Shown here: in pieces, positions 28,728 to 44,533 of the stretch
How the letters are laid out: every line of letters starts with the position of its first letter
Numbering within the stretch: the first letter of the stretch is position 1
IMG/VR virus record: IMGVR_UViG_3300042381_000806
Location: 1-51,224 of that record
Length of the DNA stretch: 51,224 bases
Source of the DNA: a virus
Direction: 5' to 3' (one strand)
Position numbers and translations under genes: made by a program
The notes under the pieces: generated by a model
What the model was told of the DNA's origin: nothing
The model's database searches: none
Seen by the model: only the letters and a program-made list of their open reading frames with translations

Positions 28728-28734
28728 ATAAATA
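28728..28734 (+). promoter_or_regulatory. Late promoter core for the GIY-YIG endonuclease gene
   Basis: TAATAAATAGAAG, with the predicted start of transcription at about 28740, where the structured leader begins. Confidence 0.7.
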
Positions 28735-28739
28735 GAAGT

Positions 28740-28777
28740 ATAGGTCGCGGAGGTCGAGTCCCACCTATTCTAGAACT
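28740..28777 (+). ncRNA. Structured 5' leader, copy 1 (two nested stems plus TCTAGAACT)
   Basis: Outer stem ATAGGT (28740-28745) pairs perfectly with ACCTAT (28763-28768). CGC bulge, then inner stem GGA/TCC with 7-nt loop GGTCGAG. TCTAGAACT follows (28769-28777). The same layout with different paired bases occurs at 43022-43061, which supports a conserved RNA structure at the mRNA 5' end. Confidence 0.6.
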
Positions 28778-28803
28778 ATCATTTTTTGGAAGGAGTCCCA
28801 GCA

Positions 28804-29625
28804 ATGTCTATTTATACTGGTTTTGTTTACATTTGGTTTGATCGCAAAAAGAAGTGGTTTTGTATTGGTTCTCACATGGGTAGTTTGGATGATGGTTATA
28901 CCTCATCAACTGGTTTCATGAAAAAGGCATACAAAAAGCGACCAAATGACTTTAGACGAAAAATACTTGAGTTTTACTATGGAAACGACAGCAGAGAACT
29001 ATTCTCTATTGAACAAAAGTATCTTGACATGATAAAGGATGCAGAACTTTGTCTTGGTGAAAATAAGACAAATGGAACCATAAGATATTACAATGTAAAG
29101 AAGAAAGCATTAGGAATTTCTGGTATAGCCGCTTCTGTTATAAAGAAAAGCTATTGGAATAGTGAAATTGGTAGAAAAAAGAAGATGGAAATGAGTGAAA
29201 ACATGAAGAAAAATAATCCATCAAAAAAGGGCGCGGTTCCTTGGAATAAAGGAAAGCGTTGTCCGTCAATTTCAATTGCAAAACTTGGAAAATCTATGAA
29301 CTATACAGAAGAACAACGAAATCGTAGATCGGAAAGGTCCAAAGAGTTATGGGCCGATCCAGAATATCTAGAAAAAATGCGCAACCGCAAAAGCCCAGAC
29401 TATGAAAAAATAGCAGACAAAATGCGCGGCCGAAATCACGACGAAGATACTAAGGCTCGCATATCAGAATCTTTGCTGGGAAAACAAAAGACAGAAGAAC
29501 ACAAACTGGCAATGAAAGTATCTGCTAAAACAAGAAACCCATTTACATGCCCGCATTGTGGATTTCAAGGAAGGGGTGGTCATCGCTATCACTTCAATAA
29601 CTGCAAATCTTTTCCCAAAGAATAA
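28804..29625 (+). CDS. GIY-YIG homing endonuclease with NUMOD3-like motifs and zinc finger
   Basis: 273 residues from ATG 28804 (GGAAGGAG ends 8 nt upstream; TTG 28786 lacks an SD). The N-terminus has GFVYIW ... FCIGSHMG, a GIY-YIG core, with RRKIL and a later catalytic-type Glu in IEQKYL. The middle has NUMOD3-like DNA-binding repeats (NKGKR, SESLLGKQKTEEHK). The C-terminus has CPHCGF...HYHFNNC, a zinc finger. Free-standing selfish gene between gp23 and the convergent early genes, with its own late promoter and leader. A second endonuclease at 43089 shares the leader and finger type. Confidence 0.85.
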   Translation: MSIYTGFVYIWFDRKKKWFCIGSHMGSLDDGYTSSTGFMKKAYKKRPNDFRRKILEFYYGNDSRELFSIEQKYLDMIKDAELCLGENKTNGTIRYYNVKKKALGISGIAASVIKKSYWNSEIGRKKKMEMSENMKKNNPSKKGAVPWNKGKRCPSISIAKLGKSMNYTEEQRNRRSERSKELWADPEYLEKMRNRKSPDYEKIADKMRGRNHDEDTKARISESLLGKQKTEEHKLAMKVSAKTRNPFTCPHCGFQGRGGHRYHFNNCKSFPKE

Positions 29626-42404: not shown

Positions 42405-42992
42405 TCAATTTCCGGTTATCAACTCATATATTTCTTTCCAGTTTGTCACACGTCTCACATCTTCATGATGATCATCAATATTATAATGATGAGACATCAA
42501 AATGGGCTTCATACCATGACCCAAACCCATCAAGGCATTTTTCATCAAATCTTCAATCCAAAAGCACCCAGTTCCTTCATATTCTTTCAGTAGTTCTTTT
42601 TTGTTCGATGAACTGCCACATAGGGTCAAGCGCTCAAATGCTGTCTTACCAAAGAGGTTGTGAATGTTTTCCATTCTGGCATCATACATATCGCGTGTAT
42701 TTGGAATTGCGCTGATGCAATGGAACACATAGCCATGATCTTCGTGAAGTTTGCGGATGTATTTGATGGCGTCTTTGAATGGAGGCAAACTCCGCATGGC
42801 AGCACTTTCATTGAAAGCAGCTGCCAGCTCATCGCCTTCTTCTTTCGAGATGCCATATTTGTCTTCGATGCTGTAGAATCCGTTTATGGTTTCTTTGTAC
42901 CCCTTGGACACCATTGACATGTGGAAACCGTGTTCCCAATACCCAATAACCCCATCGAAATCTGTGACAATCACATTGTCATAAGCAATCAT
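42405..42992 (-). CDS. HAD hydrolase, 5'(3')-deoxyribonucleotidase-like, copy 1
   Basis: 195 residues. Motif I is VTDFDGVIGYWEHGF (DxD at 11-13). CISAIPNT is motif II. GCFWIEDLMKNA is motif IV. The layout is that of NT5C-type 5'(3')-nucleotidases, which hydrolyse dNMPs or related nucleotides. The first 29 bases of the gene lie in a 30-bp repeat duplicated at 44033-44062. The SD (GGAG at 43000-43003) comes from the inserted endonuclease cassette. A second nucleotidase-like gene was probably adjacent before the insertion. Confidence 0.82.
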   Translation of the reverse strand: MIAYDNVIVTDFDGVIGYWEHGFHMSMVSKGYKETINGFYSIEDKYGISKEEGDELAAAFNESAAMRSLPPFKDAIKYIRKLHEDHGYVFHCISAIPNTRDMYDARMENIHNLFGKTAFERLTLCGSSSNKKELLKEYEGTGCFWIEDLMKNALMGLGHGMKPILMSHHYNIDDHHEDVRRVTNWKEIYELITGN

Positions 42993-42993
42993 T
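42964..42993. repeat. 30-bp direct repeat, right copy
   Basis: Identical to 44033-44062. It contains the dyad TGACAATcacATTGTCA (42965-42981) and the ATG of the 42405-42992 gene. Confidence 0.95.
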
Positions 42994-43009: not shown

Positions 43010-43016
43010 ATAAATA
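43010..43016 (+). promoter_or_regulatory. Late promoter core for the HNH endonuclease gene
   Basis: TGATAAATAGAAG, the same eleven bases (ATAAATAGAAG) as upstream of the 28804 endonuclease. Predicted start at about 43022. Confidence 0.7.
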
Positions 43017-43021
43017 GAAGT

Positions 43022-43061
43022 GTCAATCGCGGTAGTGCAAATACCCACTGACTCTAGAACT
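43022..43061 (+). ncRNA. Structured 5' leader, copy 2
   Basis: Outer stem GTCAAT (43022-43027) with ACTGAC (43047-43052), five of six pairs. CGC bulge; inner stem GGTA/TACC with 7-nt loop GTGCAAA. Then TCTAGAACT (43053-43061). Compared with copy 1 at 28740, paired bases differ but pairing is kept. Confidence 0.6.
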
Positions 43062-43088
43062 TGTCACCTAAAAGAAGGAGCTCCAGCA

Positions 43089-44033
43089 ATGGATATTTAT
43101 CCGATTCTAGCATCAAAGCCTCATAGCGAACATCATCTCAATAGATATATCAGGTTTATTGAGCAATGTCAACAGAATAACAAAAAGTCTTCCATAAAAA
43201 CACATAGGCATCATATTTGCCCAAGAGCAAAAGATATGTTTCCAGAATATGAGTCGTTCGCCAAGAACAAATGGAATATGGCACGACTGACGCCACGACA
43301 GCATTTCATCGCCCACATAATGTTGTGGAAAGTATATCCAAACATTTCTTCGCAGTTCAATGCTGTTTGGCAAATGAAACACAGAAATAACGAACAAATG
43401 AATTCGCGACTATATGAAAGCGTTCTATTAGAGCATAGCAGAGTAACCTCAGCTAGACTAAAAAATACGGTTTCTGTATATGATGCAAATGGTTTATTTC
43501 ATCGTATTCCAGTAAGTGAATATGACGAAAGTAAGCATACACCCATTTCTGCAAATAGAGTAGTAGCAAAAATGGATAGCGGTGATTATGTTGTGGTTTC
43601 TGTAGATGAGTTTCGTTCTAGAACTGATTTACACGGAACAACAAAAAATACGAAAGCATGGAATGATGGAAATACTGTTATGTATTCTTACAAAAATCCT
43701 GGCCCTGGTTTTACGAGGGGTCATTTACCCCTCTCGGATGAGCAGAAGAAAATTCGTAATGAAAAGACTCGACAGACTATATCAAAAAGAACATCAGAAG
43801 AAAATAAACTAATCAGTATAAAGAGCTCTCAAGCTAAAAGAGAGTATTATGCCAATCTCTCACCAGAAGAAAGAAAAAAGCCGCAAGAGTTCAAAGACAA
43901 GTTGTCGGAAATCAGGAAAGAAAGCAATCCGGGTTTCAGAGCAACTCACGCCTGCCCTACTTGCGGCAAAGAAGGTCAGAAAGCTAATATTTCAAAGCAT
44001 CACGGTCTCAATGGCGAAAAGTGTAGATGGTAG
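43089..44033 (+). CDS. HNH homing endonuclease with C-terminal zinc finger
   Basis: 314 residues from ATG 43089 (GAAGGAG ends 8 nt upstream). The HNH core is HRHHICPRAKDM, NKWNMARLTPRQHFIAHIMLWK. The middle resembles NUMOD-type DNA-binding repeats (FTRGHLPLSDEQKK, RTSEENKLISIKSSQ). CPTCGKEGQKANISKHHG...C is a terminal finger like the one in the GIY-YIG enzyme at 28804. It stands on the plus strand, against the flanking genes, inside 30-bp repeats. It is a selfish gene expected to cut phages lacking the insert near the nucleotidase start. Confidence 0.88.
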   Translation: MDIYPILASKPHSEHHLNRYIRFIEQCQQNNKKSSIKTHRHHICPRAKDMFPEYESFAKNKWNMARLTPRQHFIAHIMLWKVYPNISSQFNAVWQMKHRNNEQMNSRLYESVLLEHSRVTSARLKNTVSVYDANGLFHRIPVSEYDESKHTPISANRVVAKMDSGDYVVVSVDEFRSRTDLHGTTKNTKAWNDGNTVMYSYKNPGPGFTRGHLPLSDEQKKIRNEKTRQTISKRTSEENKLISIKSSQAKREYYANLSPEERKKPQEFKDKLSEIRKESNPGFRATHACPTCGKEGQKANISKHHGLNGEKCRW

Positions 44034-44062
44034 TGACAATCACATTGTCATAAGCAATCATT
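44033..44062. repeat. 30-bp direct repeat, left-end copy
   Basis: Identical to 42964-42993. It starts at the last base of the HNH stop codon and ends next to the TAA of the 44063 gene. Confidence 0.95.
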
Positions 44063-44533
44063 TTACAATCCCGTAATCTTGAAGATTTCCCGCAGTGTGT
44101 CAGCGGTGTTCTTGTGAACAATTGCGATGCCGCCGAGCTCTTTCCATGCCTTGCAGTTTTTTTCGAAGTCATCAATCAGAATGTCGCCAGGTTCGTGCAT
44201 GAACAATGCTTTGTTCACTCCGCCCATCATCGGAATGACAGTAATGTCTTTGGATAGATGTTCCCGCACCCAAGCCCGTTTTTGAATAGCAGCATTTTTG
44301 TAGTTCGACTTTGGGCAAGCAGACAGAATGGTAACATCAAAATTGTCAACCAATATGTTGAACATCCCCTTTGCATCTTTCATAAGCGGAAGGTTAGCGT
44401 AGAAGTCGTGGTAGCCGTTGATCATCTTCCACATCACATCGTCGTCAAGCGTTTGTGGGTCAACGCCGAATTTTTCAACAAAGTGGGTGTCGAAGTCCGC
44501 CATCACGCCATCGAGGTCTAGGTAGATACGCAT
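44063..44533 (-). CDS. HAD hydrolase, 5'(3')-deoxyribonucleotidase-like, copy 2
   Basis: 156 residues. Motif I is LDLDGVMADFDTHFV (DxD at 6-8). VTILSACPKSNYKNAAIQKRAWVREHL is the motif II region, and GDILIDDFEKNCKAWKELGGIAIVH holds motif IV. It is shorter than the 42405 paralogue and more typical of phage NT5C. It likely hydrolyses nucleoside monophosphates from degraded host DNA. It has a canonical sigma70 promoter at 44566-44594. Confidence 0.87.
   Translation of the reverse strand: MRIYLDLDGVMADFDTHFVEKFGVDPQTLDDDVMWKMINGYHDFYANLPLMKDAKGMFNILVDNFDVTILSACPKSNYKNAAIQKRAWVREHLSKDITVIPMMGGVNKALFMHEPGDILIDDFEKNCKAWKELGGIAIVHKNTADTLREIFKITGL

Follow-up and report, generated by a model that had tools for sequence, protein, structure and literature searches.

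The window, a 51,224-nt stretch of phage DNA, carries a GIY-YIG-type and an HNH-like homing endonuclease gene, and the same series of short motifs precedes both start codons. Why should two nuclease genes of different families share such a segment, and on which strand does it act? The original prediction described it as a two-stem RNA leader at the 5' end of the endonuclease mRNA. Both copies were found where they had been placed, each with the order ATAAATAGAAG, outer stem, CGCGG...CCC, outer stem, TCTAGAACT, GAAGGAG, CCAGCA and ATG (Table 1). A third copy, detected with the covariance model R1 (see below), lies outside the window on the 72-kb parent contig (G001:70236-70306).

The two window copies and known RNA families

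Four of the six outer-stem pairs differ between the window copies, as had been noted, but pairing is kept in the mRNA sense at only three of these four. The single mismatch ascribed to copy 2 is indeed present as an A.C in the mRNA sense, and becomes a G.U on the opposite strand. In minimum free energy, copy 1 reaches -15.1 on the minus strand with the consensus fold and -12.5 in the sense direction, and copy 2 reaches -18.3 versus -7.9. Compared with dinucleotide shuffles, neither copy folded better in the mRNA sense (z 0.42 and 1.26), and the opposite strand showed only a modest gain (z -0.83 and -0.92). Hence, the two window copies alone are weak evidence for a fold on either strand.

Table 1. 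Positions of the two element copies and associated features in the window
Feature	Position	Strand	Remarks
Copy 1, left box ATAAATA	28728..28734	+	late-promoter-like, for endonuclease mRNA
Copy 1, structured element	28740..28802	-	R1 match, E 1.5e-12
Copy 1, layout of element		-	5'-G, hairpin 2' (CUG..UAG base), A, hairpin 1' (6-bp outer stem, single G-C pair flanked by bulged Gs, inner stem)-3'
Copy 1, Shine-Dalgarno GAAGGAG of endonuclease gene	28789..28795	+	between hairpin 2 arms
Copy 1, right box	28809..28815	-	TATTTAT within ORF, ATAAATA on minus strand, 6 nt before element's first base
GIY-YIG-type homing endonuclease gene, 273 aa, after copy 1	28804..29625	+	phrog_314 E 6e-9, phrog_655 E 3e-5
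29-bp sequence, start of minus-strand neighbour gene	42965..42993		exact repeat across HNH gene
Copy 2, left box ATAAATA	43010..43016	+	
Copy 2, structured element	43022..43087	-	R1 match, E 7.6e-14
Copy 2, Shine-Dalgarno GAAGGAG	43074..43080	+	between hairpin 2 arms
Copy 2, right box	43094..43100	-	minus-strand ATAAATA within ORF, 6 nt before element's first base
HNH-like homing endonuclease gene, 314 aa, after copy 2	43089..44033	+	HH..P motif, likeness to L340 protein
Second copy of 29-bp sequence	44034..44062		exact direct repeat flanking leader and HNH gene

A search of Rfam 15 gave no gathering-level match in the window and nothing at E ≤ 1 in seven copy-bearing loci, in agreement with the earlier statement that no named RNA family fits. 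A tRNA-like or T-arm-like identity of copy 1 was rejected, with no tRNA found and a loop that is not conserved. Some copies contain CUGAUG, which we take to resemble the hammerhead, a self-cleaving ribozyme; these bases sit in a covarying stem and vary, and the ribozyme assignment was also discarded.

Distribution of the element in phages

An initial pattern scan of IMG/VR revealed three new loci whose outer stems differ from one another, all followed by an endonuclease-like ORF. Two broad scans, one requiring the plus-strand box and an independent second one requiring a CAGC-N5-TATTTAT end instead, gave at least 171 distinct copies after removal of duplicates, a count of related copies with common ancestry rather than of independent events. 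The covariance model R1, built from 70 copies, produced 104 matches in 24 of 27 viral (phage) records, among them 13 in a 361-kb phage, the highest count for one genome, and 12 in a 142-kb phage. The original prediction had called for such a search of metagenomic phages and expected hits in front of homing endonuclease genes; many further examples were obtained, nearly all of them in this position.

R1 was also run on 20 isolate or single-cell phage records and recovered the element in just two of them, Rhizobium phage RHph_I1_18 (E 4e-7) and Variovorax phage V45v66 (E 1e-14). The best match in T4 reached only E 0.15, and none was found in the cyanophages, pelagiphages, phiM12, phiN3, Aeh1, Aeromonas phage 25 and S-PM2 tested. 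Blastn searches of isolates with consensus leaders returned mostly chance matches along with the genuine RHph_I1_18 copy, and a scan of genome contigs gave 12 pattern matches, one of them real (a Nitrosomonadales bacterial MAG contig). The structured element appears to be undescribed in the open papers covered by our literature search.

Downstream genes and cassette mobility

The downstream genes were compared in 80 copies fetched with R1, a set thus chosen without regard to promoter boxes or to the genes themselves. The downstream gene is GIY-YIG- or HNH-like in nearly all of them, which upholds the view that endonuclease genes of different families have the element in common, nearly every copy lying directly upstream. 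The clear exception is L359, which has lost the downstream gene to a deletion; L286 and L327 have truncated forms of it. PHROG homing-endonuclease families match most of 71 downstream proteins (phrog_314 in 45, phrog_655 in 24), and Pfam detected NUMOD3 in 27, HNH_3 in 12 and several GIY-YIG families; the mean identity of the proteins is low. Neither window gene has a Pfam match above the cut-off, and beyond the window's own contig one weak relative was found for the GIY-YIG protein and none for the HNH protein.

Empty sites, usually in intergenic gaps, show that leader and gene are present or absent together. The 29-bp repeat that flanks the copy 2 cassette repeats the start of the neighbouring minus-strand gene, so the insertion parted this gene from its operon partner at 44063-44533. 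At one site (L359/L147/L255) a solo element has both hairpins and the right box intact, but only about 11 codons are left of the endonuclease gene. In L109 and L095, the next gene's late promoter (CCGATAAATAGGGTATGA) contains the end of the endonuclease ORF, and deleting the endonuclease would therefore damage that promoter.

A C-terminal Cys/His motif, CPHCGKxG...MxRWHFxNC, is often common to the GIY-YIG and HNH proteins encoded behind this leader (window positions 29550-29610 and 43950-44030; ORF ends of L005, L083, L084, L095 and L127), as if endonuclease cassettes swapped their ends as well as their starts. Sinorhizobium phage phiM12 (L128 1452-1488) encodes a homologue of the window GIY-YIG gene without this element, and has instead a near-perfect hairpin (AATAATTCCG/CGGAGTTATT) masking the ribosome-binding site just before the ATG.

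Anatomy and covariation of the fold

The RNAalifold consensus contains 18 pairs, 11 of which have two-sided changes, arranged as two hairpins joined by one A. The covariation score of the 70 aligned copies is 0.522, against 0.152 after shuffling and at most 0.094 with slid partners. On the minus strand, the fold begins with G1 followed by hairpin 2', whose base pairs CUG with UAG as C-G, U-A and G.U in all 70 copies. Above this base, four to five covarying pairs lead to a loop holding the complement of the Shine-Dalgarno sequence. Hairpin 1' has five covarying pairs, an invariant U-A and a single G-C between two bulged Gs, and its inner stem consists of GG/CC plus variable pairs, then the loop. 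GCUG, UAGA and the bulged Gs around the single G-C pair (the GCG bulge) are invariant in the 70 aligned copies. More distant copies found with R1 vary at some pairs that do not change in the seed alignment (for example, the single G-C pair is A-T in L291).

The covarying hairpin 2, which surrounds the ribosome-binding site, was absent from the original prediction. An SD-like sequence lies between its arms in 74 of the 80 R1-fetched copies. Despite the shared ancestry of the copies, 47 distinct arm pairs of hairpin 2 occur in the second set described below. GAACT after TCTA, formerly read as a fixed motif, turned out to be one arm of this hairpin. After hairpin 1', a consistent terminator was not found; the tail is U-rich in many copies but not in all.

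The strand opposite the gene is the one that folds

An A.C on one strand corresponds to a G.U on the other, and the two kinds of pair therefore report which strand is selected to fold. In the mRNA sense, the outer stem of hairpin 1 in 70 distinct copies contains 404 Watson-Crick pairs, 14 A.C or C.A and no G.T. A second set was found without any pairing requirement, and among its listed copies the outer stem has 731 Watson-Crick, 17 A.C and no G.T pairs and hairpin 2 has 538, 69 and 2, respectively (poorly pairing hairpin-2 arms, 1/125, omitted from the count). Thus, A.C outnumbers G.T by 86 to 2 over both helices of the second set, and by 17 (A.C/C.A) to 1 in the independent 80-copy set. The minus strand was also the more stably folded one in 157 of 166 copies among those listed. 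These counts argue that selection maintains the fold of the strand opposite the gene, and the description of the fold as a leader at the 5' end of the endonuclease mRNA has to be given up. G.T pairs stabilize DNA hairpins as well, and in single-stranded DNA they are superior to A.C. For this reason, the assignment of the fold to RNA is favoured by the promoter-like box described below and not by the pairs alone.

Two facing late-promoter-like boxes

The element sits between two facing boxes, the right one, within the first codons of the gene, being absent from the original prediction. In the 80 R1-fetched copies, the left box ATAAATA is exact in 65 and the right box TATTTAT, 5-7 nt after CAGC, in 68, with no occurrence of either in 80 control windows. 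The outer stem had been predicted to begin at the late +1. Among the 65 copies with an exact left box, the box-to-stem distance is 5 nt in 41, in keeping with this placement, but 3 nt in 10 and anywhere from 2 to 23 nt in the rest. In both window copies, the right box is 6 nt away from CAGC where 5 is usual, and the Variovorax isolate has no right box at the usual distance. Late genes of the window (e.g. 9528, 16595, 19514 and 27246) have promoters of the form C/A/G-ATAAATA, not the T4 consensus TATAAATA. A closing stem between the two boxes was considered and rejected, with no compensating changes seen.

Several features identify the right box as a nucleotide signal. In genes beginning M-x-I-Y, its Ile codon is ATT in 90 of 96 cases versus 43% elsewhere in those genes (p 4e-25), and its Tyr codon is TAT in 90 of 96 versus 74% (p 2e-6). 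TATTTAT is retained in other reading frames (M-I-F-I, M-Y-L), and where the start codon lies upstream (L022, L094, L186, L208) the ATG lies inside an arm and the CAGC-TATTTAT unit is not parted from the hairpin arms. If the right box is read as a late promoter, its predicted transcript would begin with the first base of the fold, a position occupied by a purine in the inspected copies (CAGC, or CAGT in a few). In the G020 copies (L341, L342, L344), L301 and L361, GTCAACA takes the place of the left box and the right box is kept; these endonuclease genes possibly use a different type of promoter.

Comparison with known regulatory systems

What is known of how T4-like phages control free-standing endonucleases consists mostly of gene-by-gene hairpins on the sense strand. 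The T4 genes for I-TevI, I-TevII, I-TevIII and segB and mobE of Aeh1 have such hairpins, each specific to a single gene and sequestering its ribosome-binding site (PMC2988022), and seg43 of Aeromonas phage 25 has a stable hairpin just upstream of its ribosome-binding site (PMC2988022). As in the T4 and Aeh1 cases, a late promoter here adjoins a structured region at the start of a homing endonuclease gene. However, the opposite strand folds here, and one structure serves many gene families. The seg43 hairpin likewise differs in lying on the sense strand, and Aeromonas phage 25 has no R1 match. CfrI of cyanophage S-PM2, about 225 nt long, is the one antisense RNA to a homing endonuclease gene that we know of in a T4-like phage (reviewed in PMC2984593); it resembles the element in this orientation, but is longer and also antisense to psbA, and R1 found no homologous match in S-PM2 (NC_006820).

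The closest parallel is RNA-OUT of IS10, a 69-nt structured antisense RNA made from a facing promoter, whose first 35 nt cover the translation start of the transposase (PMC5006887). Both systems involve a mobile nuclease or transposase gene with a facing promoter, here a putative one read from the promoter-like box, just inside it, and in both the antisense strand folds and covers the translation start, a likeness known here from sequence only. RNA-OUT is a single stem-loop, whereas the element has two hairpins with an invariant junction and is common to many unrelated endonucleases. We know of no sequence relation between the two.

A candidate antisense control and its alternatives

Since IS10 offers the closest parallel, T4-type control being sense-strand and gene-specific and CfrI having no R1 match, we tentatively propose, at somewhat below an even chance, that a minus-strand antisense RNA covers the ribosome-binding site and limits endonuclease translation. 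A structured RNA of about 55-65 nt would be encoded opposite the endonuclease gene. Its late promoter would be ATAAATA, which appears as TATTTAT among the first codons; transcription would begin at the purine facing the final base of CAGC and run in the direction of the gene's own late promoter. The RNA would fold into the two hairpins linked by a single A, be complementary to the entire endonuclease mRNA leader and expose an anti-Shine-Dalgarno sequence in the loop of the first hairpin. Pairing with the mRNA would then block ribosome binding and keep late nuclease expression low, as RNA-OUT does for the IS10 transposase. The strand, the fold, both boxes and the nearly exclusive endonuclease link are established computationally from sequence; production of the RNA, the position of its 3' end and the repression itself are inferred. 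The inconsistent terminator after hairpin 1', the Variovorax isolate with no right box at the usual distance and the 6-nt spacing of the window copies speak against the proposal. Predicted pairing energies are -117 kcal/mol with the copy's own target, -58 with another copy of the same genome, -48 with one from another genome and -25 with shuffled sequences, so the common leader would also permit pairing across copies.

An extended form of the antisense proposal, which we regard as rather unlikely, is a shared immunity group, in which the antisense RNA of each copy would also repress the others and up to 13 different selfish endonucleases would be under genome-wide copy-number control. It is suggested by the very similar leaders carried by unrelated endonucleases in one phage: copies are more alike within genomes than between them, also where the endonucleases are unrelated (0.822 versus 0.796, 0 of 500 permutations). 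The same likeness fits a genome-specific partner, and a minus-strand RNA whose main role is to bind a protein of the phage or host, with the conserved junction as the binding site, or to act on other targets in trans, is a serious though still unlikely alternative. The invariant GCUG, UAGA and GCG bulge exceed the needs of a cis-acting antisense RNA and hint at such a protein or shared partner. The intact solo copy also favours it, and counts against antisense control of the element's own gene. Against it stand the nearly exclusive endonuclease link and the position of the hairpin arms around the ribosome-binding site. An element acting as DNA, whose minus strand would fold when single-stranded and serve the mobility or recombination of the cassette, has a low probability. 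It would accord with the stability of G.T pairs in DNA and with the joint movement of leader and gene, but RNA is suggested by the constant spacing between the promoter-like box and the first base, the 3' flanks that were read showed no matching structure, and different endonucleases would need one common DNA enzyme.

The remaining alternatives concern the mRNA or the neighbouring gene. In I-TevI, segB and mobE, translation from early read-through transcripts is blocked (PMC2988022), and here the left box in early mRNA could similarly pair with TATTTAT, late transcripts being without the left box. The two boxes are indeed mutually complementary and flank the start region. This arrangement is nevertheless very improbable: loci with GTCAACA in place of the left box still have the right one, the right-box variants TACTTAT, TATCTAT and TATTTAC would amount to A.C mismatches at the mRNA level, and the two hairpins and their strand are left unexplained. 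We consider it equally improbable that the element is an outward promoter and leader for an upstream neighbour severed from its own promoter by the insertion. The minus-strand neighbour of copy 2 (42992-42405), split from its operon and faced by the minus-strand box, would suit such a role; however, among the copies listed, upstream genes are co-directional in 72 and divergent in 88, and the right box and the fold are the same in both groups. Least credible is a sense-strand leader, in which hairpins at the 5' end of the endonuclease mRNA would stabilize it or tune its translation. In its favour are the typical spacing of the left box in many copies and the seg43 precedent, but a T4-type stem in the mRNA sense was not found: sense G.U is almost absent and A.C common, which strongly disfavours this model, as do the scattered box-to-stem distances and the sense folding of the window copies, no better than that of shuffles.

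The element is common to many T4-like phages and lies on the strand opposite homing endonuclease genes, over the start signal of each gene. Unrelated selfish genes may thus have one antisense off-switch, or one regulatory cassette, in common. R1 provides a sensitive marker for such endonuclease genes, which are often annotated as 'hypothetical protein' (e.g. in Rhizobium phage RHph_I1_18), and the presence of the element in two cultured phages makes direct testing of its role possible.
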